Virus record (IMG/VR): IMGVR_UViG_3300021185_000618
Span: 1 to 28,344 of that record
Strand: one strand, 5' to 3'
Origin: a virus
Length of the DNA stretch: 28,344 nucleotides
In this document: one piece after another, positions 1,171 to 24,442 of the stretch
Position numbering within the stretch: position 1 is the first letter of the stretch
How the letters are laid out: every line of letters starts with the position of its first letter
Position numbers and translations under genes: made by a program
Notes under the pieces: model-generated
Told to the model about the DNA's origin: nothing
The model's input: only the letters and a program-made list of their open reading frames with translations
Databases searched by the model: none

Positions 1171-1213
1171 CAAGAAAGCATAATATAAGCCTAATCTGGG
1201 GAGAGTGAACCAC

Positions 1214-4200: not shown

Positions 4201-7200
4201 TTTCAAAGTATTTGTTGATGCCACACAGCAACTTAATATTGATGACAACTCTGCTAATTTTGCTCAAAACGTATACGCTCCAGCTTATTACGACAGCGAC
4301 AACAACTCATATTACCTAGACCCAGCAGCAGATTCTCAATTAAACACCATCGACATTGATGATTACATTCGTCATAGAGGTGACGTTACTACTCTATTCG
4401 GCTTCGATCAGAACGCAAGATTTAGAGTAAACACAGCTAATGCTAATCGTCTAAGTATTGACAACGACTCTGCCGACTTCACAGTAAATGTGTATGCACC
4501 TCGTTATTACGACTCAAACAATAATGCGTTCTACCTAGACCCAGCAAGCACATCTATCGTAAATGTTTTGAGAACAAACCAAATCCAAATGGACGGTACA
4601 TCTCTAACCATTGACTCACCATCAGGTCCTAAAGGGACTATTATGGTCGAAGGCGAAAGAGACAGCTATGCAGGTTACATGATTAGTAACGATTGGGGCT
4701 TTATATCTAGTGGTGCTACAGAAATGGGTCTGTATAACGAAACAGATAACGAATGGTCATTACTCGCCAATAGAAACAACTTCACAAGATTGTATTCTAA
4801 TAATATTCACCAAATTGGTGCTGAAAACGGTTACGGTTACGCTCCTAACAGAATGAGAGCGCCAATATTTGAAGATTCAGACAACACAGCATTCTATGCT
4901 GATTTGGCAGGTCAGTCAAGATTAAAGTCTGTTAAGGCTGGCGATAGTGCTATCTTTAACAACACAACATATCCTCTTGAAGTTAAGTCTGCCCAAGAAC
5001 GTATGATTGTAATACAAAATACATCGGCTGATGCCAACTTCCCATCTATATTCCACAACACAAGAAACTCTCGCTCTACTATGGGCATTTCGTTTAATAA
5101 TATTGGTGAAAAGTTTTGGTTTGAAGAAAATGGTAACTTCCAAGCATATGGTGCTGGTATCTTTGGTTCGCTTGCACTTAACGGTGGTAATGAAGACCTT
5201 GGATTGCTGAAAACATATGGTTCTGGTCTAGCTGACATGAAAATGTTTGATGCTTCAGATTATTGGGACAAACGTGTTATTCAACCTATGCAAGGTGACG
5301 AAAATGCGGCAACAACTTCAACCGCTGATTATGTGAAGGACGGAAGCGGACCTTTTGCTTCTTCTTATACTCTAAGAACAAATGGTTTCAGAAGCTTTGA
5401 CTCTGACTATATCCCTGTAGAACCAGGTGAAGAAATCTACGTCGAACAGGCCGTAAGATTGATCTCTGGGTCAGGTGGTAACTTCTACCTTGGTGTTAGA
5501 CAATACGATAAAGATAAAAATCCAATTGCTACTAACGATGGTATTGTGTACTTCGGTGCAAGTGCTGTTAATGTTACTTCGACTTCTTGGACGGAATATA
5601 AAGGCTACCACACGCTTCCAACATCACACACACCATTCAACGGCTCTGATGGTCTTGGTGTTCGTTTCGTAAGGGTTATTGCTCTTATGAACCACAGCGC
5701 AGGTGGTGCTTTGCGTGATTTCGGACCCCCTATTCTGAAAAGATCAGATGTACAAGGTAAGATCAAAGCCGATTCGATGGCTATTGATAATAGTGGTACA
5801 ATCGGTGTTAATCTTGATGTTGTTGGTACTATTACAGGCGATACTGTCATAGGTGTTAATGTTGACGCAACTAACTTCCGTGATGCTTCAAATGCAACGT
5901 ACTCATTCAATCCACGTACTGGTGGTAAAGTTGGTGGCACATGGGACTGGTCGAACGGTACTATTGACAATCTAAATAATCTTACTTTTGCTGATCCTGG
6001 CCCAAATGAAGGTATTCGTTGGAAGGGTGGTAATGAATGGGCGATCTTTGAATCTCCTGATAACCTAACAACAAATTCCTTAGGCAACCTACAATTTACT
6101 TCCGATAACTTAGCAGTAGGTGGATACGCCGCTGTAAGTCGTGCTACTATCACCACAGGTGGTGATGTTGTTGCGTCTCGTTATATGGATGCTCAAAGGT
6201 TCCGTGATAAAGACAATACAGCTTACTATGCTGATCCGGCTTCAACATCTGTATTTAATGAAGTTCGTGCTAACGAATATATTAGACATAATGGGGATAC
6301 TGACACTTACATTCGTTTCGTTGGTAATGACGATATGCAACTTGTTGCTGGTGGTCGCCAAATGCTTCGTATGGCAGAAGGCACTGATCCAGACAGACTA
6401 AGATTTGTTACTGATAATGATTGGACTGATGCTAACGGTGATTGGAACATGTCTCGTAATGTCAGTGTTACTGGTACACACACTGTTCTAAACGGTGCGT
6501 ATGCTAATATTTTCTACGATTCAGATGACAATAACTACTACGGTAATTTTGCTGGCACATCTGTAATGAATACGGTTCGTGGCAACCGCTTTGAAATGGG
6601 TAGTGCTTCTACTTACATTGATAACGTATCAGGTCAATACGGTACTATTAGAGTAACAGGTAATACTGGTGGATATGCAGGTTATGCAATCAATGACGAT
6701 TGGGTATTCATGTCAAGTGGCGCAGGGGTTGCAGGTATCTATAATGATACAAATAACCAATGGGCTACAATTTATCGCCAAGCAGGTGATACAGAACTTC
6801 ATTGGGCTGGTGTAGAACAAGCCTCTACTAAAAATGGCTACTTCTTAGGTACTAACGAAGTTCGTTCACCTATCTTCCGCGATAGTGATAATTCAACATA
6901 CTTCGGTGACTTTGGTGGCACATCAAGGTTCTTGGGTCTAACTGTTGACCAAGTTATCACAGGTAGTGTTTCTGGAAGTTCTGGACAATTACGTAGTAAA
7001 GAAAACCTAATTATTTCACCAAGCGAAGACAACGGCGAAACAATGGCGTTTGGTTTGGGAACTTGGAACAATGATGGTGCTTCACCTTATGCAGATTATC
7101 TACACTTAAAATCAGGTAATGATGCGGCTGACGGTAATGACAACTTGCTTATGTTCAAGAAAACTGGTGGGCGTGGAATGCGTCTATATTCTGGTTCGTT

Positions 7201-9677: not shown

Positions 9678-10058
9678 ATGGCATCATATGCAACATTAAA
9701 TAATAATCTGCAAAGTCAGTGTGGTAGTCAGCTAAGGACTTTTGATAAGTCAGTTGGTTACTACATTAATGCCTATGTATATTCTGATGTTTATAACGGC
9801 AGTTATACCAGAGGACAATGGCATTACCAACGTTATGAGTATGTAAACGCTTCAAATAGTGTTTATAATAACTATCTTGACGGGCGTATCTATACTGGGC
9901 AGATCATTTATCAGCAAGACGTGATTGATTCAATCAATAGTGTTGTGAGAAGAACGGTTGATCTTATTGAAGGTCGCATCTCAAATAGAACCATCAACGC
10001 TTATTATTGTCACGCATCTTGCCACACTAGTTGCCATTCTTCGAGAGGACGCCGCTAA
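9678..10058 (+). CDS. CHxS-tail protein 1, candidate radical SAM substrate
   Basis: 126 residues. The body is rich in Tyr, Asn and Ser (SQLRTFDKSVGYY, YEYVNASNSVYNNY). It is followed by a helical-looking linker (VVRRTVDLIEGR) and a tail in which Cys-His pairs recur every four residues: C111-H112-A-S, C115-H116-T-S, C119-H120-S-S, then RGRR at the end. The start ATG is one base after the fibre stop; AGAGG lies 12 bases upstream, so translation may depend on coupling. Proteins of this size with a conserved body and a repetitive Cys/His/Ser tail next to radical SAM genes resemble precursor peptides of RiPP type; the H-x-S steps recall HxsA-type substrates. It may also be a virion protein whose tail binds metal. 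Not assigned to a named family. Function inferred. Confidence 0.72.
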   Translation: MASYATLNNNLQSQCGSQLRTFDKSVGYYINAYVYSDVYNGSYTRGQWHYQRYEYVNASNSVYNNYLDGRIYTGQIIYQQDVIDSINSVVRRTVDLIEGRISNRTINAYYCHASCHTSCHSSRGRR

Positions 10059-10441
10059 TGACTATGGATAGAGGTGACGTCAACTCATGGGTACAAACCT
10101 ATGGGGGTTCACAATTAAGAACGTTTGACAGAAACGCTGGGATATACGTTAATGCTTATGTTTACGCAGGTGGCGGTAACAACAGTTATACTAGAGGTCA
10201 ATGGTATTATCACAGATTTGAGTACGTAAATGCTTCAAATGGTGTGTACAACAACTATGTCGATGGTGGTATCAACAGTGGCAACGTTATCTATCCACAA
10301 GACATAGTTGACACATTGGAAGACTTGGTGAGAAGAACGGTTGATTTGATCGAAGGTAGAATGTCAAACAGAACTATTAATGCATACTATTGCCACGCAA
10401 GTTGCCATAGTAGTTGCCACAGTTCGAGGGGAAGAAGATAA
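10058..10441 (+). CDS. CHxS-tail protein 2, paralogue of the preceding gene
   Basis: 127 residues. The start ATG at 10058 overlaps the previous stop as TAATG, with AGAGGA eight bases upstream; another ATG in frame lies at 10064. It shares SQLRTFD, YTRGQW, YVNASN, YNNY, VRRTVDLIEGR and SNRTINAYYCH with its neighbour and ends C112-H113-A-S, C116-H117-S-S, C120-H121-S-S, RGRR. Over the last 24 codons 14 differ silently from gene 1 and only one changes a residue (Thr to Ser), so the tail is held by selection on the protein. It has lost the extra Cys near the N-terminus seen in gene 1 (SQCGSQ). The radical SAM gene starts two bases after its stop. Same candidate role as its sister: substrate or precursor-like virion protein. 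Confidence 0.72.
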   Translation: MTMDRGDVNSWVQTYGGSQLRTFDRNAGIYVNAYVYAGGGNNSYTRGQWYYHRFEYVNASNGVYNNYVDGGINSGNVIYPQDIVDTLEDLVRRTVDLIEGRMSNRTINAYYCHASCHSSCHSSRGRR

Positions 10442-10442
10442 G

Positions 10443-11618
10443 ATGTCAATGCAAAAATCATATTGTAAGCAAATGAGATACTCAGGACCTGAAAGCCTGT
10501 CGCCTGATAGTGCGTCCAAGTTTGATGTTCTCATTCAAATGGAAGTTTTAGCTGGCTGTGATCATGGTTGTTTGGGTTGTTTTGTCGATAAGAACATCGA
10601 TCCTGATATGAACCAACAGATCATTGATAGAGCAAAAGAACTCACTGATGGTGTAGCCAGAACTGGGCTAAACCTAAGAGAATTTGTTATAGGTCCGACA
10701 GACTTCTTCTCTGCTACCAATACAGAGTCTGTGCTGAATAACTCAATTGTACAAGACATTATGAGAGAACACACTGGCGCACGTATTGCGGCTCCAGCTA
10801 AGTTTGATATTGCTACAATGGAAAGAGTAAAAGAAATCTATGCCATCCTTGATGACGAAGATAAGTTTCGTCGTGATATGATCATTGAGTTTATTATGCC
10901 TATCGGCAAAGTAGATCAGATGTTGAACGACGAAGATTACTTTAACAATGTCATGGAAAAAGTACAGTTCTTTAAGGACAGTACACCTAAACAGATGGAC
11001 TGGTCTTGGACACTACAGGCATCGAACGTTGTTGGTAAAAAGATTGACAAAGAAACATATAACAAAATCATTCAAAAATCAGTAAACGAATACGAAACTA
11101 TTGTAGAAATGAACCCAGCTTTCTCAAGAGCAAGGTCGCAGTTGGTACAGCGTAGAAACCTATTTGGATGGAATGATTTCCTTGGTAAGGTTATTGACAA
11201 AGATAACGCACAAGAAACAGTTATGTCAATGGCTAACTTGTATTGTAACTCAATCAACTTTATTGGACTTACAATCGTACCAGGTGAAAACGGACCTACT
11301 ACACACTTGAATGTAATGCTTCACGAACAAGCATTCTTCCTCAATAACAAAAACCTAGACGTCACAGGTCTTACATTCGAAGAAATCTTGGATCGTAAAA
11401 ATGAGTTAGTGACGAAGGGTATAAATAGATCAAGTAAGGTGTCTGATTGTAACGGATGTCAATTTGCCGTAGCATGTGCAAGCCGACTAATCTTCGAAGC
11501 TCAAGAAACTTTAAACGTTGATGGATGTGTTTTAAACAAAGATGTCCTTGCAGAATATAACCCATACGATTGGACTTGGAACGACGATGCGATGGAAAAA
11601 CTAGGAGTAACATCATGA
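10443..11618 (+). CDS. Radical SAM protein 1 of the plus-strand paralogue family
   Basis: 391 residues, starting at the ATG at 10443, two bases after the CHxS gene stop; GAGGGGAAGAAG precedes it. The CX3CX2C motif C39-C43-C46 (CDHGCLGC) is the [4Fe-4S] site that binds S-adenosylmethionine. The family motif IGPTDFF has G84-P-T-D87. A C-terminal CX2CX5CX16C set (C336, C339, C345, C362) would bind one auxiliary cluster, a half-SPASM or twitch arrangement typical of peptide-modifying radical SAM enzymes. It also carries the MNPAFSR segment whose Pro and Arg recur in most sisters. It is the most divergent of the five: the YLxPFxYE segment reads THLNVMLHE. Its place next to the CHxS proteins makes them the first candidates as substrates. 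The reaction is unknown. Confidence 0.85.
   Translation: MSMQKSYCKQMRYSGPESLSPDSASKFDVLIQMEVLAGCDHGCLGCFVDKNIDPDMNQQIIDRAKELTDGVARTGLNLREFVIGPTDFFSATNTESVLNNSIVQDIMREHTGARIAAPAKFDIATMERVKEIYAILDDEDKFRRDMIIEFIMPIGKVDQMLNDEDYFNNVMEKVQFFKDSTPKQMDWSWTLQASNVVGKKIDKETYNKIIQKSVNEYETIVEMNPAFSRARSQLVQRRNLFGWNDFLGKVIDKDNAQETVMSMANLYCNSINFIGLTIVPGENGPTTHLNVMLHEQAFFLNNKNLDVTGLTFEEILDRKNELVTKGINRSSKVSDCNGCQFAVACASRLIFEAQETLNVDGCVLNKDVLAEYNPYDWTWNDDAMEKLGVTS
11420..11427 (+). promoter_or_regulatory. Possible internal late promoter (TATAAATA)
   Basis: Exact TATAAATA followed by GATC, inside the coding sequence of radical SAM 1 (residues GINRSS), 188 bases before the next start at 11615. It could boost the downstream genes. 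A chance match encoded by the residues is also possible. Confidence 0.35.
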
Positions 11619-12731: not shown

Positions 12732-13559
12732 ATGAATACTGACGAAGAAAGAAAGTGCTACGTTATACCTCTGGCTCCTACAGACCTTGTGCAAATTTAC
12801 AAGGTGAAAGAGGAAGAGAAAGATTTTGTACTATTTGTAAATTATTTTGAATCAAGAGAAAAACTTTCAGCGAAACATATTATCATATACCTAGCAAACA
12901 CTAATTTCAAAACTACTTTTTCGGGTATTGATGAAGAATTGTTAATAGAGTATATTAAGTCAGACTTTTTGATTGACAGTCCACTGTTGTCAAGGTTTGT
13001 AGTAATGATAATGAAAACTCGCTATGGACATGCATTAAATAATTTAGAAGAAAAACTTCTATTACAATTTAGCAAAGAACAACTGCATGATTTCGTAGAT
13101 AAGCACGTTGAGTTGGTTGATGAACTTTGTGAAACCATTGCTTCGATCATTCCTTTTGTCTTGTGTACGTTCTATGCAAACCTATCAGACGAAAATAAAG
13201 AAAAAGAATTTGAATTGGGTGAAGCAATCAAAGATATTGTTGTGACTGATGAACCAACAAATTGTGGACCTAATATTGCACGTCTAGTCACTGATGGGTG
13301 GGATGGATTTCTGTTAGTATGCTCTATGCTTGGGTTCTCAAAGAAATACAACAAGCAATTGTTCAATGAAAAACCAAGTTATTTTGGCAAAGACTTGTTC
13401 TTTATGTTAGGACAGACCAAAATTGTTGAGAACATCCTATCAATGATGCCGCCTGGATTTATTTCTACAGTAGACATAACACCACCCCTTAGTGATGATG
13501 AAATGGAAGCCGCGATCCTTAGCGATATTGAAGCAAAAGCAGATGATAGTACACCTTAA
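12732..13559 (+). CDS. Unknown protein, cassette partner B
   Basis: 275 residues, ATG at 12732 after a 16-base gap, the largest gap in this cassette. No recognised domain. The N-terminal half shows FVLFVNYFESRE and IEYIKSDFLIDSPLLSRFVVMIMKTRYGHAL, which matches the layout of partner A (FVFANY, then LVEKFTIHSPVMAKDV, then SRRHYSA). The C-terminal end is acidic and low-complexity (PPLSDDEMEAAILSDIEAKADD). It overlaps the next gene by 17 bases. Likely a sister of partner A and part of the same system. Function unknown. Confidence 0.68.
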   Translation: MNTDEERKCYVIPLAPTDLVQIYKVKEEEKDFVLFVNYFESREKLSAKHIIIYLANTNFKTTFSGIDEELLIEYIKSDFLIDSPLLSRFVVMIMKTRYGHALNNLEEKLLLQFSKEQLHDFVDKHVELVDELCETIASIIPFVLCTFYANLSDENKEKEFELGEAIKDIVVTDEPTNCGPNIARLVTDGWDGFLLVCSMLGFSKKYNKQLFNEKPSYFGKDLFFMLGQTKIVENILSMMPPGFISTVDITPPLSDDEMEAAILSDIEAKADDSTP

Positions 13560-14565
13560 TGGCACATATGCAGGTTATTATTCATATGATGAAGATAAGA
13601 GTCCTATAAACACAGACTTTCTTAGGACAGAAATCAATCTGGACATTTTACATGGCTGTAGTCAGATGTGTCCGGGTTGTTTTATTCCAAGAAAGAACTT
13701 GACTAAGGCAGATAACTTAGAAACTCTATATAATCTTCTCATTGAAGGTGCGTATCACCCCGACGAAATCACTGTCGGACCTACAGACATTTTTGATGCA
13801 GAGAACTTTCGTGAGATCATGACGCATCCATATATGAAAAAACTATATGGCATATCAGCGATTGGGTTTACATCAACATTACTTCAGTCTTATCAAGAAA
13901 TACGCTATAAGCTAGATATGATTTGGGGTTTATACAAAGATATTCATAGAATACCAGACATCGACTTCAAAATAGTATTAGATATAGATAAGTATCTTGA
14001 TGGCGAACTAGACGATTGGTACAAGAAACTTGAAATGTTTAAACTTGGTTCAGTACAGTTCCGTGTAAACTACCACAAAGATGTTTTCAAAAGAATTGGG
14101 TATAATGAGCTATGCCAAAGGGTATTCGATGACTTTAATGCTCCTGTTGTCATAACACCTTCTTTCCTTACTGATAGAAACGTTAGGGGAAAGGTAAGTC
14201 AACATCTTGAGAACTTTAAGCGTGATATGCTAGAGCAAAAGATTGACGATAAGTGGTTAAATCTATACACGTTCTTTGATGCTAAATTTAATGGTTACGG
14301 TTGTCAGAACTATAGTTTCTACAACAACAAACTTTATCTTAACCCATTCCTATACGACGTGATTATACAGCGCACACCACAATTCGAAACAACTATGGAT
14401 GCAAATACACTATATGACAATATCGAATATGCCCAACAAGTTGACGATTGCAATGGTTGTGAATATATGATGAGTTGTGCTGAGCGTAACATACATTTGT
14501 ATATGGAGTCGAGAGGATTGGACAGTTGTGTTGCTCTTAAGGAGTACATGTATGCCTCTGATTAA
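13543..14565 (+). CDS. Radical SAM protein 2 of the plus-strand family
   Basis: 340 residues. ATG at 13543 (MIVHLNGTYAG) chosen because it leaves only a 17-base overlap with the preceding gene; a longer start at 13492 would overlap by 68 bases and adds an unrelated Lys-rich stretch. Radical SAM cysteines C39-C43-C46 (CSQMCPGC), GPTD at 79-82, and a C-terminal CX2CX5CX16C set at C303, C306, C312, C329. It carries the family segments TPSFL (here followed by T-D-R rather than xR) and YLNPFLYD. The N-terminal 30 residues are Tyr- and Asp-rich. It is translated in overlap with both neighbours, which suggests coupled synthesis with the other enzymes. Reaction and substrate unknown; peptide or protein modification is the usual role of this architecture. 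Confidence 0.83.
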   Translation: MIVHLNGTYAGYYSYDEDKSPINTDFLRTEINLDILHGCSQMCPGCFIPRKNLTKADNLETLYNLLIEGAYHPDEITVGPTDIFDAENFREIMTHPYMKKLYGISAIGFTSTLLQSYQEIRYKLDMIWGLYKDIHRIPDIDFKIVLDIDKYLDGELDDWYKKLEMFKLGSVQFRVNYHKDVFKRIGYNELCQRVFDDFNAPVVITPSFLTDRNVRGKVSQHLENFKRDMLEQKIDDKWLNLYTFFDAKFNGYGCQNYSFYNNKLYLNPFLYDVIIQRTPQFETTMDANTLYDNIEYAQQVDDCNGCEYMMSCAERNIHLYMESRGLDSCVALKEYMYASD

Positions 14566-15709
14566 GAACAACCTATACTACGAAATGACTACAGAGACGC
14601 AAACTAAGCCAGTGAGCGCAGTTAAGATACAACTTGACGTTTTGGATGGATGTCACCACAAATGTCCTGGATGCTTTGTACATAGGCGTGGTAACAGTAG
14701 TGACCCACATCAACTAGAAGAAGCCAAACAGTTTATCAAGACTATTACTGATCAAGGCATTCTGGTAGATGAGATGCTTATCGGTCCGACTGACTTTCTC
14801 GCCTCTGAGAACTTCTATGAGGTTATGCCACATCTACTCGACGTTATCAATGAGAATAGCCCAATACTTGCATTCGTGTCAACCCTTATTGATGGAGATA
14901 TCAAAAAGTTTTGTCAATTCATTACTGACAATATAAACCTTGACACAGAGATTGAAATAGGTATTGCGACTAACCCACACAAGTTCTTTAATGAAGATTA
15001 CATACAACACGTATCAGAAATCCTAGACTACATAGATAAGAACCTACAACATGAGGTTACATATACATTCGTTGTTAATATAAAAGATTATGGATTAGAT
15101 TATGAAGAACTACACGATCAGGCTGTAAAACGTTTTGATACCATATTGGACTTCATTCCTTCAGTATCTCGCTCCCATAAAGCAAACATAATCTTAAAGA
15201 CACTTGATGAATTCAACGAATACTTTAGCACATGGCATCGTGAATCAAAGCTAAACAACATTATGGTAGATCATAGCCACGCTGGTATGAACTACACAGT
15301 GTTGAACTACAAAAGAGGTGAATGGTATCTTAGTCCGTTCATGTATGAGAACATGGCTATCTACCACGATATGTTCAAGGTAGATAACTTTAACTCAGTT
15401 AATGGTATGGTGGAACAACAAATTGAAAGTGCTAAGGGAACTGAGTGTGAAGATTGTCCTTTGTTCTTCTCTTGCTACAATAGAAAGATCATAATGTTAA
15501 GAGATTACCTTGGTGTGGATCGTTGTATTGCTCCTAAAGAGAATATGTTAAATAACATACATAACTATAACGCACCTGCTCAAACAATGTATCAATGGGA
15601 TGGTTATTCAGTTGAAAACGACAAGCAAGGTTATCGTAAGAAGTTTTTAGTTACTACTGACGATGATCCAGAACTAGAAAGAATTAAGGACATATCATAT
15701 GTTAAATAA
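14552..15709 (+). CDS. Radical SAM protein 3 of the plus-strand family
   Basis: 385 residues. ATG at 14552 has a strong ribosome site AAGGAG seven bases upstream, which decides the start; it overlaps the previous gene by 14 bases. SAM cluster cysteines C34-C38-C41 (CHHKCPGC), IGPTD with GPTD at 78-81, and the auxiliary cluster set C299, C302, C308, C325 with the same CX2CX5CX16C spacing as sisters 1, 2 and 5. Contains IPSVSR and YLSPFMYENMAIYHDMFKVDN, closest to sister 4 in this region. It has a C-terminal extension of about 60 residues after the last Cys (YNAPAQTMYQWDGY onward) that most sisters lack, which may bind a partner. Substrate unknown. Confidence 0.84.
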   Translation: MPLIKNNLYYEMTTETQTKPVSAVKIQLDVLDGCHHKCPGCFVHRRGNSSDPHQLEEAKQFIKTITDQGILVDEMLIGPTDFLASENFYEVMPHLLDVINENSPILAFVSTLIDGDIKKFCQFITDNINLDTEIEIGIATNPHKFFNEDYIQHVSEILDYIDKNLQHEVTYTFVVNIKDYGLDYEELHDQAVKRFDTILDFIPSVSRSHKANIILKTLDEFNEYFSTWHRESKLNNIMVDHSHAGMNYTVLNYKRGEWYLSPFMYENMAIYHDMFKVDNFNSVNGMVEQQIESAKGTECEDCPLFFSCYNRKIIMLRDYLGVDRCIAPKENMLNNIHNYNAPAQTMYQWDGYSVENDKQGYRKKFLVTTDDDPELERIKDISYVK

Positions 15710-16853
15710 TGATTGGAAAAATATTGTAGATGGTGGGCGTGGTGAAGAGTTTACTTCTATCGACAATATGAAGCAATACAAGATACAAGTTAATCTTGAG
15801 ATACTAGAGGGTTGCTCCTACATGTGTCCTGGTTGCTTTGTTAAACGTAAAGGTAATTGGAACCCAAACTCAATTGCTACGTTTCACTCATTAGCATATG
15901 AATTAAAAGATAGAGACGATATTGTATTAGATGATATTGTAATAGGTCCGACAGACTTTTATGGCGCACAAAACCTAGAAGAAATAATCAACAACCAAAG
16001 ACTTGCTGATGCCATATCCATGATGCCAGAAGACAACAGGAACATTCAGCATAACTGTTCCATACTTGGTTCCTTATCAGAAAAAGATATTGAGGGTAAG
16101 ATAAAGTCTATTGAAAACTCACTTTTGGGTAAGGTTGTTGAAGCTTGGGACGTACAGATTGCGTTAGATTTGAACCGTCTAATGAATGATCAGGTGTACC
16201 TAGACGCTCTTGACGAAAGAGTAGAAACATTTAAAAACAGTTCTTTAAACTTTGAAATAAGTATGGCTACTAATATAGTAAAGGGCGTAGAGGATATACT
16301 ATTCCCTGCTATTGAGTTCGTTAGGGATAGATACGAGACTGTTATTGAGGTATTGCCTTCAGTAGTACGCTCTTTCAATCACAGCGCAAAGCATGGAGAT
16401 AAGTTATTTGAATGGAATGATATGCTGACACGCTTAGCAGTAGACCCATATCGTTTCAAAAACAAATTCCACTTCTTACAAGGTGATGTGTCACATAAAG
16501 CTTTTCATTATTCCGTTATAAGTATATATCATGGGGATATGTATTTGTCGCCGTTTATATATGAGAATGCTCAAATCCATACAGATGATTTTAAAGTTGA
16601 TAATGGTTGGTTATGGTTGCCAGATGCGGATATAACTGACTATATTTTGAGAAAGAAAGATGAGGTAGTTGTTTCTCAAATTGAAAACAGTGGGAACAAA
16701 GAATGTGGAAGTTGTAAGTACCTAAACATATGTGCGAATAGAATGGTTCCTATGATTATGGATACTGTGTTTGATGGAAGAAAAGAGTGCATCTTAAATA
16801 AAGATGTAATTGGTTTATATGATGATGAGGTTTATCATGGGAATAGTTACTAA
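15699..16853 (+). CDS. Radical SAM protein 4 of the plus-strand family
   Basis: 384 residues. ATG at 15699 with AAGGA eight bases upstream, overlapping the previous gene by 11 bases. SAM cysteines C39-C43-C46 (CSYMCPGC), IGPTDF with GPTD at 83-86, LPSVVR, YLSPFIYENAQIHTDDFKVDN, and auxiliary cysteines C336, C339, C345, C364. The last gap is 18 residues instead of 16, the only spacing change in the family. Strong similarity to sister 3 around the FKVDN segment suggests these two arose by a later duplication. Probably a protein-modifying enzyme of the same cassette; its own substrate is not evident. Confidence 0.84.
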   Translation: MLNNDWKNIVDGGRGEEFTSIDNMKQYKIQVNLEILEGCSYMCPGCFVKRKGNWNPNSIATFHSLAYELKDRDDIVLDDIVIGPTDFYGAQNLEEIINNQRLADAISMMPEDNRNIQHNCSILGSLSEKDIEGKIKSIENSLLGKVVEAWDVQIALDLNRLMNDQVYLDALDERVETFKNSSLNFEISMATNIVKGVEDILFPAIEFVRDRYETVIEVLPSVVRSFNHSAKHGDKLFEWNDMLTRLAVDPYRFKNKFHFLQGDVSHKAFHYSVISIYHGDMYLSPFIYENAQIHTDDFKVDNGWLWLPDADITDYILRKKDEVVVSQIENSGNKECGSCKYLNICANRMVPMIMDTVFDGRKECILNKDVIGLYDDEVYHGNSY

Positions 16854-17865
16854 CAATAAACGAGCCGCACAAGCTGACAAAGACTTTGATCTATCTTTCT
16901 CTGAGGGACATGAAATAAAAGTACAGTTCAACTGCGAAGTATTATCAGGTTGTGAATTTAAGTGTAAAGGTTGTTTTGTAAACAAACTTGGTTCTAACAT
17001 GGGGTCTTACGATAGGTTAAACAATGCTATTGACTTATTCAATACTAATGGGTATAGAGTATCTACAGTAAACATCGGACCTACTGATCTATTCGGTAAT
17101 AACAATGTTATTGAGTTATTGCAAGACGAAACATTTCGTGAGTGCTTGAGTAAAGTTTCTACTATACAATTCGTGACTACTCTAACCAACATTTCATCGG
17201 AAGTGATTGATTTACTGAATAGTATTCCAAAAATAGATGGTTTTATGTATGACGTTAACATCGCCCTACAACCACCAGTGGATTGGGATTGGGTAGAAGA
17301 ACGGTTAAATCTTCTAAATGGATTTACAGACGATCTAAACTATTACATGGTTTACAACATGGGTAATGATGATGAGTACAATTCTAAAGTGCTTGAGATG
17401 TCAGAACTTGTAGAGGATAGGTTTGACTCGATACTTACACTGAACCCATCGTTCTTCCGTGCGCCTAAGAGTAAAGTCCAGCAGCACTTAATTGAGAAAT
17501 GGAAAGGGTATGACTTCTCTGATGATCTTATGCCCAAGACGTTCATAGATCAAGCACAGGGTGGTTCTTTAGAGTTAAACTACACCTACTGTAACGAACG
17601 TTTCTTTTGGACGCCATTCGTATATGACATCGCTTTAATAGGTACTGATGAATTTAAAGTCAAAGATGAGAATGACATTGAGTCGTGGACAGAAGCCAAA
17701 TCGTTTCAATTTATGGAACAATTAACGTACTCTGCTGAAACGAATAACTGTGGCTCCTGTCCTAATATGATGACATGTATTGATAAGGGTGTACTAAGTT
17801 ATATGAAACATCACTCACTTCTTTCGTGCGTGTTTCCCGGTGTGGTAACGACCAATAAAAGTTGA
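16837..17865 (+). CDS. Radical SAM protein 5 of the plus-strand family
   Basis: 342 residues. ATG at 16837 has GAGG six bases upstream and overlaps the previous gene by 17 bases. SAM cysteines C39-C43-C46 (CEFKCKGC), where Lys replaces the Pro found in sisters 2-4; IGPTDLF with GPTD at 81-84; LNPSFFR; WTPFVYDIALIGTDEFKV; auxiliary cysteines C305, C308, C314, C331 with CX2CX5CX16C spacing. Last gene of the plus cassette. Its final 51 bases overlap the end of the minus-strand gene 17815-18531, so the two transcripts converge with no room for a separate terminator. Confidence 0.83.
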   Translation: MGIVTNNKRAAQADKDFDLSFSEGHEIKVQFNCEVLSGCEFKCKGCFVNKLGSNMGSYDRLNNAIDLFNTNGYRVSTVNIGPTDLFGNNNVIELLQDETFRECLSKVSTIQFVTTLTNISSEVIDLLNSIPKIDGFMYDVNIALQPPVDWDWVEERLNLLNGFTDDLNYYMVYNMGNDDEYNSKVLEMSELVEDRFDSILTLNPSFFRAPKSKVQQHLIEKWKGYDFSDDLMPKTFIDQAQGGSLELNYTYCNERFFWTPFVYDIALIGTDEFKVKDENDIESWTEAKSFQFMEQLTYSAETNNCGSCPNMMTCIDKGVLSYMKHHSLLSCVFPGVVTTNKS

Positions 17866-18531
17866 CGGAAATACATTCTGAAATTCTTGAAAATCGTGTG
17901 GTGAACACTTATGCATTTTAATATCTAATTCTTGTTCGTGCATTGGGTAAATGGACATGATAGGTGTACCATACTTGAGTGTCACTGTGTATTCTTCAGC
18001 TTTAATAGGAAATACTAAAAACACATTTAAGGTATGTTGGTCATAAAAGTTTGTAATCCCAGGCACGAGTAGAATATTGTGCTTTCGCAAATCTTCACTA
18101 AAGTGTACCTCAGTAATCATGAACTCTGCTCTACGATTAGCTGTAACTGTCCAAGGACCGTGCAGTTTAAAAATTGTTCTATTTGGATATAACGTATCAC
18201 CAAATTGCTTTCGCTCGTGCATTGCCCCAGAAATAATGTCTGCCCCATAATGCGGTTCAATACATTCAACATCACCATCTGGTTTTACTTTAAAAATCGC
18301 ATCAGACCACAACTTAAGAGTAATAGGCTTACGAATATAATCAACTACACCAGGACAAGTCTTTAGTGTAGGTGTTGGTATTTTAGTACCAACCCTAGAC
18401 CTATACGTGTCATACGTGTTCTTTATTGATTTCCACCACGTTGGTGGTTTTGATCTTGGTTGAATTGGTTGAAGCTCTAGGATTGCCCCATGCTGTGTAT
18501 AAAAATCAAGTTTAAGTTTTTTCTTTATCAT
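17815..18531 (-). CDS. Phage protein of unknown function, 238 residues
   Basis: Last gene of the minus-strand operon. ATG at 18531 has AGGA about seven bases upstream and overlaps the radical SAM gene before it by 20 bases. Beta-rich, with no membrane segment. Features include PPTWWKSIKNTY near the N-terminus, KTCPGVVDYIRKPITLKLW, GPWTVTANRRAEFMITEVHF, and YGTPIMSIYPM near the end. I recall the pattern WWK / CPG..DY / W / G.P......P from hypothetical proteins of T4-like marine phages, but cannot tie it to a function. The basic C-terminus (TGKHARKK) is notable. It could be a structural protein or a substrate or partner of the neighbouring SPASM enzymes. Confidence 0.7.
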   Translation of the reverse strand: MIKKKLKLDFYTQHGAILELQPIQPRSKPPTWWKSIKNTYDTYRSRVGTKIPTPTLKTCPGVVDYIRKPITLKLWSDAIFKVKPDGDVECIEPHYGADIISGAMHERKQFGDTLYPNRTIFKLHGPWTVTANRRAEFMITEVHFSEDLRKHNILLVPGITNFYDQHTLNVFLVFPIKAEEYTVTLKYGTPIMSIYPMHEQELDIKMHKCSPHDFQEFQNVFPSTFIGRYHTGKHARKK

Positions 18532-19588
18532 AATTAAATCCTGTTATCAAATTCTGCCCTGTTTTTTCCATATAATTAAACCACATTCTCATGATGCAAT
18601 CAGGCAAGTCACGTTCTCTATTCTTCCAGTCCCATTGTGTGTAACATCTAAATCCACATTTGTTCCACCACTTACAAGACAAACAACCATTCTCATCCAT
18701 ATAGGCTTGCATCATACCTGCATTGTCTTTGCGTTCATATTTAGTGTTGAAGTCACGTTGATCGTATCTATCCCATCTACAGTTTGATGTAGAGTTATCA
18801 GGAAAGATTGTAACCTTATTAAGTGCCAAGCAATGCATGTGGTTGCTCTCGTTATATATCAAGTCTTTTATAGGATTGATGTCGGGGTAGTTGTGATATA
18901 CAAACTTCAAGAACTCTAGGTACTCACTGTCTGATGGTATCATATAATCAAAACCACGATCTGGTATATAATCATCAAAGTAAAACTCATCAAACTTCTC
19001 ATACAGATAGTGGAAGTATTCATCATCATCAGCCATAAACTTTTTAATTGACAAAGTAGTAGCAACCATATTAATTGATATGATATAATCAGCAAAGTAT
19101 TCTATGTTTTTTGCGTAAGGTCCTTTTGTGGGTCTTCCGTCAAAGTCATAAGAGCATATAATGTAGGACGGGATGTCTACAGCGTTTAGATCGTCTAATA
19201 GTTTTTCTACCCTATCTCTCTTGCTAAACTGAAAAGAAGTAACCCAAACAACTTTAATCTTTTGCTCGTGTTCATCGAATATTTTCTTAATTGCAACTAG
19301 AAAGTCATAATAAACTGGGTAAGCCCACTCTGATATACGATCTTGGAATAGTTCACCACCAACCATATTGATTTGGATAATGTCTACTCTGCCTTTCATT
19401 TTAATAACATGTTGTTCAACCAAATCAAGCTTGGAGAATATTTCTTCTCTCGACAAGCCTACAGTTGACTTCTTGTCGTGATGACAAAAAGAACAGTTAA
19501 GGTGACAGTTTTCAAACAACGTCAACTCAATCTCAGCGATGTCGGGTCGCTTAGTTTCTAATAACTGTTTTGTTATGTTAAAGTCCAA
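18512..19588 (-). CDS. Radical SAM/SPASM protein D (TTG start proposed)
   Basis: 358 residues if started at the TTG at 19588, which has AAGAGG nine bases upstream and overlaps the preceding gene by 11 bases. The ATG at 19645 would add 19 residues, overlap the preceding gene by 68 bases, and adds nothing that looks conserved. Radical SAM cysteines C28-C32-C35 (CHLNCSFC), the GGE motif at 77-79 (NMVGGELF) that contacts the SAM amino group, and a SPASM domain: CLALNKVTIFPD..C (usual Gly position is Asn) then CX2CX5CX3C at C302, C305, C311, C315 and a last Cys at 331. SPASM enzymes typically modify peptides or proteins. Unlike the plus-strand family it has GGE and two auxiliary cluster sites. Confidence 0.8.
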   Translation of the reverse strand: MDFNITKQLLETKRPDIAEIELTLFENCHLNCSFCHHDKKSTVGLSREEIFSKLDLVEQHVIKMKGRVDIIQINMVGGELFQDRISEWAYPVYYDFLVAIKKIFDEHEQKIKVVWVTSFQFSKRDRVEKLLDDLNAVDIPSYIICSYDFDGRPTKGPYAKNIEYFADYIISINMVATTLSIKKFMADDDEYFHYLYEKFDEFYFDDYIPDRGFDYMIPSDSEYLEFLKFVYHNYPDINPIKDLIYNESNHMHCLALNKVTIFPDNSTSNCRWDRYDQRDFNTKYERKDNAGMMQAYMDENGCLSCKWWNKCGFRCYTQWDWKNRERDLPDCIMRMWFNYMEKTGQNLITGFNYDKEKT

Positions 19589-20003
19589 ATAACATTTCCT
19601 CTTTGTAGTATTCGTAGATGTCAGGAACCATACCAAGCTTCTCATTGAAGTCTAGTTGGGCGAGTATTTCATCATAGGTTTCTTTGTCTTGCCAATATGG
19701 GACAAAGTGGGGGTCATTATTGAATAGCAATTCTGGATCATTGAGTGCATCAAAGAAGTCTTCCTTGAAGTCTCTGCTAAGCCAATGTGCATAACATATA
19801 GCAACCACGTAAGATTTAGCTGGGTAAATCCATTCGTCTACATACTCTCTGAAGTGCATTAACGCAAAATCAACCGTGAGGTCAGGTTGCCAATTAATCT
19901 CCACATCAGTCAGATCATCTTTGAATAAAGATGCTGTCAAATGATATGCGCTTTGTCTAGCTTTCCATTCTTTCATAATATTCCAACAATCCTTTATATC
20001 CAT
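19578..20003 (-). CDS. Small unknown protein between radical SAM genes
   Basis: 141 residues, acidic and rich in Trp, Tyr, Phe and Asp (VDEWIYPAKSYVVAICYAHWLSRDF, PYWQDKETYDEILAQLDF). No recognised domain and no long hydrophobic segment. ATG at 20003 overlaps the radical SAM gene before it by 47 bases; an in-frame ATG at 19976 would overlap by 20. Neither has a strong ribosome site. A small non-enzyme gene held between two radical SAM genes could be a leader-binding or docking partner. This is inference from position only. Confidence 0.6.
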   Translation of the reverse strand: MDIKDCWNIMKEWKARQSAYHLTASLFKDDLTDVEINWQPDLTVDFALMHFREYVDEWIYPAKSYVVAICYAHWLSRDFKEDFFDALNDPELLFNNDPHFVPYWQDKETYDEILAQLDFNEKLGMVPDIYEYYKEEMLFGL

Positions 20004-20871
20004 TACAACTATTAGTCAAATCTTTAACATATCGGTAATGTTCTGTTAAACAATTACCATAATATTTACACGTCTTACATATTTCGCTTAGATTGTTCTC
20101 AGGTTCTTCCCTAGCCCACTTCTTGTATTCATAATATGTTTTGTATTCTTTGAAGTATTCCTTATCATATTTATCGAACTCAAGCACACCATATTTACCA
20201 CTAGGGGTGATGTAGACGTGATCATTGCTGAACGCATCATATTCTTTGTCAATGCTTCGCCAGATGTTATCCATGTTTTGAAAATTAAAATTCTTTTCTG
20301 TTTTAGCTTCATCAAACCTAATAACAAAATCTTCAAAGTCTTTGTGCGTCACAGGATGGGCGTTTGCTTGGTTAATCGAGTAAGGTTTAATCTCAACTGA
20401 CTTTACATTAGCTACCATGTTAAGTGTAAAGATCATAAACTCAACATCCATCTCTAACACCTTGGGAGACGCAAGGATAAGCACAGACAAGTCCTTGTTG
20501 GCTTGCATCATGTTATTGAGTACGAACTGTTCTTTTTCTCTTGCGTGAAAGTCGTATGATACAGATAATGTCACATCTTCATCTCTAAAGAAATCAGGAA
20601 ACGCTGATAAGTTTGTATTGATGTTAATACTACCACCATAGTGTTTCCTAATCACCTCTTTAAGCGAATAGTAATACTCTGGTGTCAGTAGACCAATTTC
20701 ACCACCATACAGATCGACATGTCCAATAGGATCATCTATCTGCCCCAAGCTGTGATCAAGCCATAAAGGTGTTATCTTATGTCTATCATTTAATTGTGCT
20801 GTTGTCAAGTAGCAAAAGTCACAGGCAAAGTTGCAATAGTATGTCGGATTAATTGATAGATTCATCAACAT
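19957..20871 (-). CDS. Radical SAM protein C (short auxiliary-cluster type)
   Basis: 304 residues; ATG at 20871, alternative ATG at 20865. It overlaps the previous gene by 23 bases. Radical SAM cysteines C13-C17-C20 (CNFACDFC), GGEI at 55-58 (DLYGGEIGLL), and a short C-terminal set CX2CX5CX14C (ICKTC, GNC, NSC) able to hold one auxiliary cluster. It lacks the first half of a SPASM domain, so it is shorter than proteins A, B and D. Likely a peptide- or protein-modifying enzyme; substrate unknown. Confidence 0.8.
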   Translation of the reverse strand: MLMNLSINPTYYCNFACDFCYLTTAQLNDRHKITPLWLDHSLGQIDDPIGHVDLYGGEIGLLTPEYYYSLKEVIRKHYGGSININTNLSAFPDFFRDEDVTLSVSYDFHAREKEQFVLNNMMQANKDLSVLILASPKVLEMDVEFMIFTLNMVANVKSVEIKPYSINQANAHPVTHKDFEDFVIRFDEAKTEKNFNFQNMDNIWRSIDKEYDAFSNDHVYITPSGKYGVLEFDKYDKEYFKEYKTYYEYKKWAREEPENNLSEICKTCKYYGNCLTEHYRYVKDLTNSCNGYKGLLEYYERMES

Positions 20872-21886
20872 AAGGTGTCACCATATCTGGACTCATTCCA
20901 TTCGTAGCAAGTATTCTTGGAGCGAGTGATTTCATTTGTTTGCAATGTGCTTCAGTTGTCCCTTCACGTTTCATATCACGTACTGTCTTTTTACAGCCAT
21001 TACATATTTCAAACATAGGGCAAGTGTAGCAAGCCATTTTCATTGTCTGTATATGAGGATCATTTTGAAGAGGTGTCTGCATTTCACCATTCATTTCTTC
21101 TTCAAAATCAATAGGGTAATCCATATCATCAGCAAAAGAACCACACGAGTAGTAGTCACCCCCTGGGTTGAATGCACGAATACCACCATCGCAATGCCTA
21201 TTTTGAGGACAAGTAGTTGAAAAGCCTTGGAGACGTTTCATCATTTGTTTAGTGTTGAACTCATATTCAGCTAAACCACGATCATATATTTCAAGGTATG
21301 TTTCGTAAATCTTACTTAACTGATACGTGCTACCTTGTACGCCAGACGCCATAGCATAGTTTAACTTACACTCCACGTCCATCTCTTTGGCAAGCTCAAC
21401 GTTCTTGATAGCAAGATGTTCATTCTCTTCTGTAATAACCGCAATAAAGGGTGGACGTTCGCCAGTATGTTTTAACATAGCATCAGACACCATCCAAAAG
21501 TCTTTTTCTGTAAACTCTGAATAGTCACCTTTTAGTCTACCACCACCATACTGAAATGATGTTGCACAACCAAATCTTTCGTTCTTGAAGATGGGTAGCC
21601 ACTTCTCTGGGCGCATTAAGAAAGGCCATAGGTTAGATGTAAAGCTAATATATGCTGGGTAATCATGTTCATCAAGATGGTCTATCAGTTCTTGGTAATA
21701 CTCTGGCTTGACCATAAGTGGGTCACCACCATTAACAATGATTGTGTTAGTATCAGGATACCTTTTCAAGAAACGATAGATATATTCCAAGTCCAACAGC
21801 CCAACTTCATTGGGGTCGATGTCAGTCGAAGAACAAAACGTACATTTAAAGTTACAAGCCTCGGTTGGCTTAATAATCAAATCCAT
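20849..21886 (-). CDS. Radical SAM/SPASM protein B
   Basis: 345 residues. ATG at 21886 preceded by GGGAGACAAAGG and overlapping the previous gene by 10 bases. Radical SAM cysteines C11-C15-C18 (CNFKCTFC), GGDP at 53-56 in place of GGEP, and a complete SPASM signature: C232 X10 G243 X4 C248, then C286, C289, C295, C298 and C315 (CX2CX5CX2C, one residue shorter than the usual CX3C). Enzymes with this layout include sulfatase-maturing and RiPP-maturing proteins, which act on peptides or proteins. A second enzyme directly before it has the same layout, so stepwise or heteromeric action is possible. Confidence 0.83.
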   Translation of the reverse strand: MDLIIKPTEACNFKCTFCSSTDIDPNEVGLLDLEYIYRFLKRYPDTNTIIVNGGDPLMVKPEYYQELIDHLDEHDYPAYISFTSNLWPFLMRPEKWLPIFKNERFGCATSFQYGGGRLKGDYSEFTEKDFWMVSDAMLKHTGERPPFIAVITEENEHLAIKNVELAKEMDVECKLNYAMASGVQGSTYQLSKIYETYLEIYDRGLAEYEFNTKQMMKRLQGFSTTCPQNRHCDGGIRAFNPGGDYYSCGSFADDMDYPIDFEEEMNGEMQTPLQNDPHIQTMKMACYTCPMFEICNGCKKTVRDMKREGTTEAHCKQMKSLAPRILATNGMSPDMVTPYVDESIN

Positions 21887-22905
21887 CCTTTGTCTCCCGC
21901 TAATTTCAACATCAATGTTTTAGGCGCTGGGCATACGTCTTCCATCCATTGTAACTGATGACAATCAGAATGGCAATAGATAAACACAGGACAGTCGTAA
22001 CAACGTGGGTCACGCTCATGTGTCTCACAAGCAATCACTTCCATGCGTTTAGGGCTTTCTCTTACTGTCTTTGCTGGCATACTGATGTCACCATACCATT
22101 GTGTTGGGGCAGTATTAGGGCAACCTGCTACCGTACCATCGGCATTGATAGTGTGTATCTTTTGTTCACAATCCCTACAGAACGTACCATTAAAGAATTG
22201 ACCTTTACTAAACTTATCATAAACTGAATTGAGAAAGTTATTATGTATAGGGTGATCTTTAGTCGTCTCATGCATCTTCATCCAAAAAGCATCAAGCTCA
22301 GAGTTATGTGGAAAAATATCTGTATTAATTGTTGCATTGCCATCGTGGGTCAATCGTTCATAGTTAATAGAACCCACTCCAAGTGAATGCATATAATCAG
22401 CAATCTCAAGGGGTTCCATTGCAACAACATCTTTAGATACGGAAATAAAACATTGGATGTTACAACCTTCAGAAACCAAACGCTTTACATTGTCTTCCCA
22501 AAGCTGTCTTTGCTTTTCGTTTGCAAAACGAATGTTGGGGTCCCATGATGTACCGATAGAACCAGAGTCTAATACTTTAAGAAACTCAACACGTTCGTCA
22601 GTCAGTTTATATGTAAGATTTGTTGTGATACCATGTGTACATTTATCGCCCCAATGATCTTTCGTAACGTTATAGAAATGCCACAAGTCTTTCATTGGCG
22701 CAAGCAGAGGCTCACCACCATGGTACTCAAAGTGTATATGATTTGACCCATCGTCTAATTCGTTACACCACTTCGCTGTCTTATCCGCATCAAAGTAAAT
22801 CTTACGTCCGTTAATACCAGAAGTAAAACAATGGGCGCAGTTCAGATTACAAGTTTCGGTAGTCTTAACGTATACGATTAAGTGTTTCTGTGTCGTGAAT
22901 GCCAT
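21877..22905 (-). CDS. Radical SAM/SPASM protein A
   Basis: 342 residues. Radical SAM cysteines C19-C23-C26 (CNLNCAHC), GGEP at 63-66 (EYHGGEPLLA), and a textbook SPASM domain: C246 X10 G257 X4 C262, then C302, C305, C311, C315 (CX2CX5CX3C) and C325. It most resembles the anaerobic sulfatase-maturase and peptide-maturase group. The ATG at 22905 overlaps the cupin gene by 41 bases, more than its neighbours, and I find no strong ribosome site; no later start would keep the N-terminal strand. First radical SAM gene of the minus operon. Target unknown. Confidence 0.84.
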   Translation of the reverse strand: MAFTTQKHLIVYVKTTETCNLNCAHCFTSGINGRKIYFDADKTAKWCNELDDGSNHIHFEYHGGEPLLAPMKDLWHFYNVTKDHWGDKCTHGITTNLTYKLTDERVEFLKVLDSGSIGTSWDPNIRFANEKQRQLWEDNVKRLVSEGCNIQCFISVSKDVVAMEPLEIADYMHSLGVGSINYERLTHDGNATINTDIFPHNSELDAFWMKMHETTKDHPIHNNFLNSVYDKFSKGQFFNGTFCRDCEQKIHTINADGTVAGCPNTAPTQWYGDISMPAKTVRESPKRMEVIACETHERDPRCYDCPVFIYCHSDCHQLQWMEDVCPAPKTLMLKLAGDKGWI

Positions 22906-23317
22906 GTGATAACATCAATGCCTTTTCATAATTTAACGCTCTATGCGGTGTTCCAGATGGTATTAAAACCGTATCGCCCTTTTTTAATACAACCTCTTTG
23001 CCTTCAACTTCCATAATCTTCGTACCAGCAAGACATTCGATAAGAACATCTACAGGGTCTGTGTGGACATCAAATGATGCACCATTCTTTTGATTGTAAA
23101 AGGCATGAACGGTTCCTTTTACAAACAGTAAAGTTTCTATTTGCTCTACTTTAATCGTTCTACTCTCAGACAACAATCTAGCTACAGTCCCAACATATGA
23201 GATGAAGTCAGTTTGTTCTATGTAGTGTTGATTACCATCTTCGTCTATATAAGAAACATCATGGTTATCAAAACACTCTTCTGTTAGCAGAAAGTTTTCA
23301 AAGTCGATAAATGTCAT
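22865..23317 (-). CDS. Cupin-fold protein
   Basis: 150 residues; first gene of the minus-strand operon, with AGG six bases before the ATG at 23317 and a late promoter about 25 bases upstream. Residues 80-130 form a single cupin domain. Motif 2 fits the classic form G114-X5-P120-X-G122-X2-H125-X3-N129. Motif 1 is a variant, H85-T-D87 with E94. H85, D87 or E94, and H125 could bind Fe or another metal. The N-terminal half has no recognised domain. Such proteins may be dioxygenases, isomerases or simple binders. Its place ahead of four radical SAM genes and back-to-back with a 2OG oxygenase suggests a modification role, not proven. Confidence 0.72.
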   Translation of the reverse strand: MTFIDFENFLLTEECFDNHDVSYIDEDGNQHYIEQTDFISYVGTVARLLSESRTIKVEQIETLLFVKGTVHAFYNQKNGASFDVHTDPVDVLIECLAGTKIMEVEGKEVVLKKGDTVLIPSGTPHRALNYEKALMLSHGIHDTETLNRIR

Positions 23318-23396: not shown

Positions 23397-23423
23397 ATGT
23401 CATATATCATGAAGGAGACTGTT

Positions 23424-23984
23424 ATGGATTTTAATCCGCATTGGCCTACTACCATTGGTTCTGGAAAATTTGACGTTGAAGGGCTTGTTGAACACATATT
23501 CACTACCTACAACTTAAATGATTTAACAGGAGAGGTAGATGGCGGTAATATATTTAAAGATAACTCTGATGTAATGAATAAGTTCAAAGCATTAGTACAC
23601 GATAAGTTTAATGATTACCTAAAGCACTCTATTAATAAAAGTATTGAAGATTTCAAAAGTCATGAAATGAAAGCATGGATTACAGGTCATAGCAAAGACT
23701 ATAACATGACTATACATAATCATTCTGGCGCACACTTATCTGGTGTATTTTACATATTAGCAGAAGATCAAAATAGTGGTGGTGACATAGTATTTTCTGA
23801 CCCAAGAAGCAATGCTAATAGGGGATATGATGATTGGTTTAATCCTTTGTTTGATAGACATGCAATTACCCCAAGAACGGGAGATTTTATGATTTTTCCC
23901 AGTTTCACATACCATCATGTCAACCCCTATTACTCTAGTCTGAGAATATGTGTTCCTGTAGATTTGTATCTGTACAGGGGCTAA
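23424..23984 (+). CDS. 2OG-Fe(II) oxygenase family protein
   Basis: 186 residues. The ATG at 23424 has AAGGAG six bases upstream; the earlier ATGs at 23397 and 23409 lie at the transcription start or before this site. Residues about 84-180 match the small prolyl-hydroxylase-like 2OG-Fe(II) oxygenases: IHNHSGAHLSGVFYI with candidate iron ligand H98 or H100, SDPR with D126, FPSFTYHHVNPY with H164 or H165, and R174 (LRICVPVD) to hold 2-oxoglutarate. These enzymes hydroxylate proteins or small molecules. Related genes are common in marine T4-like phages, often beside structural genes. A virion protein target is plausible but not shown. It is transcribed divergently from the cupin/radical SAM operon. 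Confidence 0.82.
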   Translation: MDFNPHWPTTIGSGKFDVEGLVEHIFTTYNLNDLTGEVDGGNIFKDNSDVMNKFKALVHDKFNDYLKHSINKSIEDFKSHEMKAWITGHSKDYNMTIHNHSGAHLSGVFYILAEDQNSGGDIVFSDPRSNANRGYDDWFNPLFDRHAITPRTGDFMIFPSFTYHHVNPYYSSLRICVPVDLYLYRG

Positions 23985-24058: not shown

Positions 24059-24442
24059 ATGGCTTTTACATATACATACACAGTCCGTAACCTAAAGGTT
24101 AAGGATGAGGTAAACTCTGAAGGTGCGACACTGACTAACGCAGTAGTTCAGACATATTGGGACATTACTGGTACAGACGAAGATGGCAACTCTGGTCAAT
24201 TCACAGGTGCTACACCATTTTCAGCGGCTACTGTTCCTGCTGGATCATTCACTGCATTTGAAGATTTGGATGAGGCTACAGTAATCGGTTGGATTACAAA
24301 TGTAATCAATTCAGACCCACAATACAAAGCTCACATCGATACGCAAATTCAAAAAGAAATTGATAGAGAAGTGGCAACTGAAGTTGCTGGAGAAGCATTG
24401 CCTTGGGGTGAAGCAACACCAGCACCATCTGACGATATTTAA
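24059..24442 (+). CDS. Small conserved phage protein (DUF7936-like), copy 1
   Basis: 127 residues with AGGAG before the ATG. The pattern is YTYTVRNLKV, a polar turn, then NAVVQTYWDITGTDEDGNSG, a short threonine-rich segment, then FxxFEDLDEATVIGWI and a charged end. I recall this layout from small proteins common in T4-like marine phages, placed in a DUF7936-type family. Late promoter and neighbours suggest a virion or assembly role. The tail after residue 100 (EVAGEALPWGEATPAPSDD) is extended, with LPW, compared with copy 2. Function unknown. Confidence 0.78.
   Translation: MAFTYTYTVRNLKVKDEVNSEGATLTNAVVQTYWDITGTDEDGNSGQFTGATPFSAATVPAGSFTAFEDLDEATVIGWITNVINSDPQYKAHIDTQIQKEIDREVATEVAGEALPWGEATPAPSDDI

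Follow-up and report, generated by a model that had tools for sequence, protein, structure and literature searches.

Two adjacent genes in a viral DNA stretch of 28,344 nucleotides (the whole of which is termed the window here) encode paralogous proteins, A and B, whose last 16 residues follow the formula (C-H-x-S)3-R-G-R-R. This tail recurs on different proteins in well over 100 phage genomes, and always beside a bank of radical-SAM genes whose enzymes are of a peptide-cross-linking kind; phages therefore probably remodel the tip of a virion protein chemically, as bacteria make modified peptide antibiotics. There is a good likelihood that A and B are virion proteins with a C-terminal RiPP-like core, that this core is modified by the neighbouring radical-SAM/SPASM enzymes and that the tip becomes cross-linked. 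Evenly balanced is the wider proposal of a widespread phage system, in which a dedicated radical-SAM set turns the RiPP-like core of a virion protein into a multi-cyclised, possibly metal-holding tip that contacts the receptor. Conservation of the tail, its portability, its strict co-occurrence with the enzymes, the family of these enzymes and the constancy of a Ser, Asn or Asp acceptor are direct observations. The features of the window are listed in Table 1.

Table 1. Tail proteins, enzymes and partner genes in the window
Feature	Position	Strand	Remarks
Tail protein A	9678..10058	+	126 aa; predicted folded body and C-terminal CHASCHTSCHSSRGRR; open reading frame, homologues in 16 loci
16-residue tail codons of A	10008..10055	+	Lowest pN/pS block, 0.143
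Tail protein B, paralogue of A	10058..10441	+	127 aa; ends CHASCHSSCHSSRGRR
16-residue tail codons of B	10391..10438	+	pN/pS 0.114
R1, radical-SAM	10443..11618	+	CDHGCLGC, auxiliary CNGCQFAVAC; CX3CX2C invariant in 35 homologues
U1, 366 aa	11615..12715	+	In 33/64 wide loci; matches no family
U2, 275 aa	12732..13559	+	In 59/64 wide loci; conserved close downstream of tail gene
R2, radical-SAM protein	13543..14565	+	Conserved CX3CX2C
R3, radical-SAM protein	14585..15709	+	Weak Pfam Radical_SAM match, 2.7e-4
R4, radical-SAM protein	15699..16853	+	Conserved CX3CX2C
R5, radical-SAM protein	16837..17865	+	Conserved CX3CX2C
M1, radical-SAM with SPASM-type cysteines	18512..19645	-	PHROG 1802, 4e-19; cysteines 99-100% conserved in 103 homologues
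Mx, 141 aa, accompanies M2	19578..20003	-	In 36/64 wide loci
M2, radical-SAM, shorter auxiliary-cluster motif	19957..20871	-	PHROG 1802, 2e-32; cysteines 100% conserved in 91 homologues
M3, radical-SAM/SPASM	20849..21886	-	Pfam 1.3e-8; cysteines conserved in 107 homologues
M4, radical-SAM/SPASM	21877..22905	-	Full SPASM cysteines; directly upstream of tail gene in most other phages
Cu, cupin, upstream of M4	22865..23317	-	Pfam Cupin_2 1.4e-11; H85-x-D87...H125
Putative 2OG-Fe(II) oxygenase	23397..23984	+	Pfam 4e-14; related genes in cassettes of some jumbo phages

Selection on the tails of two paralogues

The ATG start of B overlaps the stop codon of A (TAATG). In an AlphaFold model of the metal-free monomer, the body of A is arranged as helix-strand-strand-helix (pLDDT 72-93), with values of about 50 over the last 20 residues. 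The model predicts a folded body and a disordered C-terminal tail, and such disorder is what a substrate should look like. Searches of Pfam and NCBIfam gave no significant family for the tail proteins. The family ocin_CLI_3235 was rejected, as its E-values of ~0.08-0.09 are at chance level. Fold searches with the tail protein and with U2 gave no match below E 0.2, and the tail profile had no match in the PDB.

A sequence-only reading of this DNA had counted 14 silent differences and one replacement (Thr to Ser) between the last 24 codons of A and B. The count is correct, and the other nine codons are identical. Serine codons do switch between TCT and AGT as described, but the "several" of that reading are two codons (S114 and S121 of A). 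At three fixed Ser positions in 30 A/B pairs, a change of codon class is found in 13 of 90 comparisons.

The prediction that dN/dS would be lowest over the tail is borne out by codon alignments of homologues, in which pN/pS reaches its lowest block value over the last 16 codons, in A as well as in B (Table 1; other blocks, 0.24-0.80). The tail pS is not reduced in these alignments (0.73 in A, 0.67 in B), which rules out a constraint at the DNA level. The pN of 13 core codons lies below every one of 5,000 random draws of 13 columns, and 12 of the 14 invariant columns of a 61-sequence alignment fall in the last 16 residues. Selection was said to act on the exact tail residues. This is slightly too strong, since the three x positions are free; the wording fits the Cys, the His, the Ser at +2 from each His and the terminal RGRR, all near-invariant, but not the x of each CHxS, which varies. 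Freely varying Cys or His positions, named beforehand as evidence to the contrary, were not seen: all six are invariant in 129 representatives, a set whose pattern-found members had been selected for Cys and His. Tails recovered independently via M3 keep every Cys and His and show only Ser to Asn changes.

The likeness of the two tails might also stem from a recent duplication or from gene conversion. A and B tails of the same genome are more alike than tails across genomes, and in the window an identical run of 18 bases is situated just before the tail region. Against this, silent differences between A and B approach saturation: within 30 genomes, pS is 0.77 in the tail and 0.68 in the body, with pN at 0.08 and 0.36 and pN/pS at 0.108 and 0.531, respectively. 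Tail silent sites are thus as diverged as those elsewhere, and the tail is just as fixed where other phages carry a single copy of the gene. When the bodies are placed in a tree, the A copies of the main clade (24/24) fall into one well-supported group with the B copies outside, which indicates that the duplication predates these phages; the clade of locus L016 has a separate A/B split, in a short alignment with a long-branch warning there. The silent divergence and the A/B tree rule out conversion or recent duplication for practical purposes, and the original claim of selection on the tail rather than a recent copy is upheld. As judged from these alignments, the A/B duplication is old.

Within a genome, A and B have matching x residues far more often than across genomes. 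This holds when one representative is taken per cluster (24 of 30, where 8.3 are expected); none of 20,000 shuffles reached as high a value. Shared x changes in two long-separated paralogues point to a common partner, and this suggests that the tails of A and B have a common partner in each phage.

Two other small tandem proteins of the window, at 24059-24442 and 24458-24787, are alike by eye. The former matches DUF7936 (3e-12), and the pair may represent an old tandem duplication like that of A and B.

Occurrence of the tail and its probable link to the virion

With A as query, 16 viral contigs were found, and all display the tandem A and B followed by radical-SAM genes in near-constant order. 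Among the matches listed, 129 non-redundant proteins, 74-309 aa long, end precisely with the tail. These have several body types, and their tails end at the stop codon as RGRR, which the pattern does not demand. The majority of tails were found by a pattern that presupposes CHxS: at the DNA level, (CHxS)3-R-G is present in at least 119 stretches of viral contigs, where a rough estimate gives few chance matches at most.

The x residues observed are A, S, T, N, Q, Y and G. The residue at +2 from His is S, N or D, rarely A or V; close relatives have Ser, Asn or Ala there, and among distant variants, a search that left this position free gave S, N or D in 27 of 28 units. The tails of distant relatives consist of four to six units or end differently. 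Examples are CHSNCHSNCHSNCHTNRSRR (L354), CHSSCHYSCHSSCHGD (L363), CHSVCHSDCHHNCHSN (L371), CHNDCHSSCHYDCHNDCHSDCYSD (L408) and a tail of five units ending in SSGGW (L059). At L382 an S74 domain, a tail-fibre chaperone, directly follows the CHxS run (Pfam 1.5e-11), a fusion absent from A and B of the window. S74 domains self-cleave, and in L382 the CHxS run would consequently end up near the mature C-terminus.

Among the 129 representatives, every tail locus whose flank extends for 4 kb or more on a side (122/122) has radical-SAM genes; the 64 loci with wide flanks have three to nine each. In the reverse search from M3, the tail was found in all 25 contigs of at least 30 kb whose cassette is not cut by the contig end (25/25); six of these 25 carry Ser to Asn variants that fall outside the DNA pattern. 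A frequent gene order is cupin, M4, tail gene, U2, a gene of ~370 aa, M1, M3, M2 and Mx. The tail gene of most phages is within the enzyme operon, directly after M4; in the lineage of the window the M set is on the opposite strand and R1-R5 are added. Locus L005 (585-8962) has an A/B pair with R1 and R3 only of the R set, then directly M-type genes with no change of strand, and may represent an intermediate arrangement. The cassette ranges over phages of Alpha-, Beta- and Gammaproteobacteria and many marine contigs. No earlier report of the tail or of its tie to radical-SAM enzymes was found among open-access papers.

This co-occurrence bears on the idea that the tail is a metal-binding tip, in which three Cys and three His at the end of a fibre-like assembly would bind a metal (iron, zinc or an iron-sulphur cluster) and the radical-SAM genes would serve another target. 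The regular spacing of Cys and His is in keeping with such a tip, S, N or D at +2 could be favoured in turns, and the tips of phage fibres and spikes are known to contain HxH iron sites. The idea leaves the several radical-SAM enzymes at every locus without explanation, however, and the tail is disordered in the AlphaFold model of the metal-free monomer; a metal-binding tip of this kind is considered unlikely.

A genome scan gave 13 matches. L300-L302 are without radical-SAM genes and represent chance; the other matches are probably phage contigs in MAGs. The tail cassette is found at L307 (PAMZ01000003.1), a 382 kb contig binned as Halobacteriovoraceae, and at L309 (JAUHVL010000003.1), a 228 kb contig binned as bacterial; both are probably jumbo phages inside MAGs, possibly infecting those hosts. 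A relaxed scan for CHxx repeats gave 119 loci, most of them unrelated repeats and six with cassette genes. At L390 (1642-2865, minus strand) a six-unit CHxS run is followed by a long Pro-Thr-Glu-Ala linker; a Hint/intein-like domain (end HHNL) was suspected by eye after this linker, and Pfam did not bear it out, matching the linker only (PT repeat, weakly). A 167-aa protein at L443 (6070-6573, minus strand), on a 314 kb viral contig, displays many CHSN, CHSD and CHGN units, and no radical-SAM gene was found in the 7.9 kb examined.

Isolated phages gave no tblastn match with A, the tail alone or the L095 protein, probably owing to divergence and the low-complexity filter. Homologues were reached instead with M3 and a jumbo-phage tail protein as queries. 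M3 is present in seven phage records that represent six jumbo phages: Sinorhizobium Phosso, Agrobacterium Atu_ph07 (recorded twice), Burkholderia FLC6, FLC8 and SURPRISE13, and Pseudomonas DT01. In each isolate stretch examined the tail gene directly follows M4. The tails are CHTSCHASCHSSRSRR in Phosso, CHSSCHASCHNSRSRR in Atu_ph07, CHSSCHTSCHGSRGRR in FLC6 and SURPRISE13 and CHTSCHTSCHSARGRR in DT01; the FLC8 tail protein is identical to that of FLC6, and PHROG 35144 comprises tail proteins of the FLC6 type. Cupin or radical-SAM genes are named, without explanation, in papers on FLC6, SURPRISE13 and 332-Vera. The jumbo-phage radical-SAM clusters (332-Vera, FLC6, SURPRISE13, RP12/RP31) and PHROG 1802 and 35144 comprise the same enzyme families as described here, but the papers and PHROG entries name no substrate and do not mention the tail.

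In Atu_ph07, a mass spectrometry study of the virion defined a particle-protein cluster, CDS 170-215 (PMC6102473). The numbering of the phage record agrees with that study (portal gp198, prohead core gp204), and gp170, the first gene of the virion cluster, is the tail protein; from the cluster boundary we infer that gp170 is present in the particles. This cluster, the S74 fusion and the giant fibre-like gene upstream of A make the tail protein a probable particle protein of the tail region.

The giant fibre-like protein (window 1205-9676) has 2823 aa with repeated D-x-N-x-x-Y-x-x-D-P-A-x-T-S modules, and is preceded by a protein (108-1157) with tandem YYTETELDGGQLDNR-type repeats. Pfam gave no informative match for either protein.

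Enzymes of the cassette

The CX3CX2C motif is present in nine of nine window enzymes and is 100% conserved in their homologues. R1-R5 are five paralogues with 20-28% identity. The SPASM auxiliary motif, taken as C-x9-15-G-x4-C ... C-x2-C-x5-C-x3-C ... C, is complete in M4, has C-x2-C at one step in M3 and is without the Gly in M1; M2 and R1-R5 have a reduced auxiliary motif only. Conservation of the cluster cysteines in M1-M4 is 99-100% across 91-125 homologues per enzyme, which indicates maintained enzymes. M3 and M4 score best against DynA and DarE, with anSME, PapB, HxsB and HxsC weaker; all of these scores are far below the curated cut-offs, which none reaches. For M3 the best matches are NCBIfam DynA (1.6e-12) and, in the PDB, anSME (9e-7); for M4 they are DarE (1.5e-12), with DynA, PapB (1.5e-9) and HxsB weaker. 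The H-x-D...H triad of the cupin is 100% conserved in 102 homologues, and the PDB matches of this protein do not fix a reaction. A confident model of U2 (pLDDT 92) has no match in the PDB.

By eye, the region 24821-28090 of the window encodes a glycosidase/phosphorylase-type protein, a TPR plus methyltransferase-type protein and a nucleotidyltransferase-cupin fusion, suggesting sugar metabolism beside the cassette; the first two are without a Pfam match.

The cassette might instead make a small molecule or modify host, RNA or glycan targets, with the tail only recruiting or carrying the enzymes or their product. Such a role would suit the sugar and nucleotide-activating genes downstream, and a single substrate of 16 residues would hardly seem to need as many as nine enzymes. 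As three to nine enzymes exceed the number of different positions per unit, some may indeed act on other targets. But the enzymes are of the peptide-maturase type, the tail gene of most phages is embedded in their operon, and M1-M4 and the tail are constant across tail loci whereas the genes at 24821-28090 are not. Like the metal-binding tip, and to about the same degree, this alternative is improbable.

Candidate chemistry of the tail

In the preferred reading, tail modification, the folded body would hold out a flexible C-terminal tail whose last 16 residues serve as substrate of the radical-SAM enzymes encoded alongside. M1-M4, three of them with complete or near-complete SPASM auxiliary cysteines, and probably the cupin oxygenase too, would modify the repeated CHxS units, together with R1-R5 in this lineage. 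The likeliest modification would be a set of cross-links onto the beta-carbon of the Ser, Asn or Asp of each unit. With the His two residues before as donor, the product would be a three-residue cyclophane like those of triceptides; with the Cys at three residues' distance it would be a thioether, and CHx[S/N/D] fits either donor equally. A rigid multi-ring tip would result, most plausibly for host attachment or added particle stability. The tail as substrate, the type of bond and the role, host contact included, are what we infer.

Characterised enzymes that form three-residue cyclophanes link an aromatic residue, which may be His, to the beta-carbon at +2, where partners include Ala, Ser, Asn and Asp; characterised i, i+2 pairs are His-Ala, Phe-Ser, Trp/Phe-Asn and Tyr-Asp (PMC11002830). 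Triceptide/3-CyFE systems (HaaB, MscB, XncB, OscB, YxdB, YhhB) resemble the phage cassette in having a radical-SAM/SPASM enzyme beside a C-terminal repeated aromatic-x-acceptor motif, and His-x-[S/N/D] of the phage tail consists of documented partners, as does the occasional Ala (PMC11002830). In the phages, however, the candidate substrate is a probable particle protein rather than a short precursor, each His is preceded by a Cys, there are several enzymes where triceptides have one, and the cross-links are proposed ones. None of the NCBIfam 3-CyFE models is reached by the phage enzymes. The small precursor with leader and core, a triceptide trait, was not found; the candidates are 74-309-aa proteins with a folded body. 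It counts against a RiPP reading that classical precursors are small leader peptides and the proteins here have 126-309 aa. Nor was any RRE (leader-recognition) domain detected.

The Hxs system (HxsA with HxsB, HxsC and HxsD) also has HxS repeats near a C-terminus and more than one radical-SAM maturase. The phage units differ in being CHxS with a period of four, and the scores are below the Hxs cut-offs (M4 against HxsB, 33/370 bits; M3 against HxsC, 23/268 bits; no HxsD match). Ranthipeptides, with the Cys thioether enzyme PapB, share a Cys followed by an Asp, Asn or Ser acceptor, and the M4 match to PapB is below the cut-off. The natural motif of PapB is Cys-x3-Asp, whereas the phage spacing is Cys-x2-acceptor. 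As to sulfatase maturation (anSME), the tail has no Cys/Ser-x-Pro-x-Arg motif, and TIGR03942 gives 40/349 bits, below its cut-off.

Known examples of peptide maturation by radical-SAM enzymes concern small secreted peptides and a limited number of enzymes. In the phages described here, several such enzymes belong to the constant gene content, and they go with a single tail of 16 residues on what is probably a protein of the particle. Modification of the tail would explain the radical-SAM clusters beside structural genes in jumbo phages, left unexplained in recent papers. If true, virions would be modified in a way that is new, and new enzymes that cross-link peptides could be drawn from these phages, with post-translational cross-linking chemistry used to build a virus particle.
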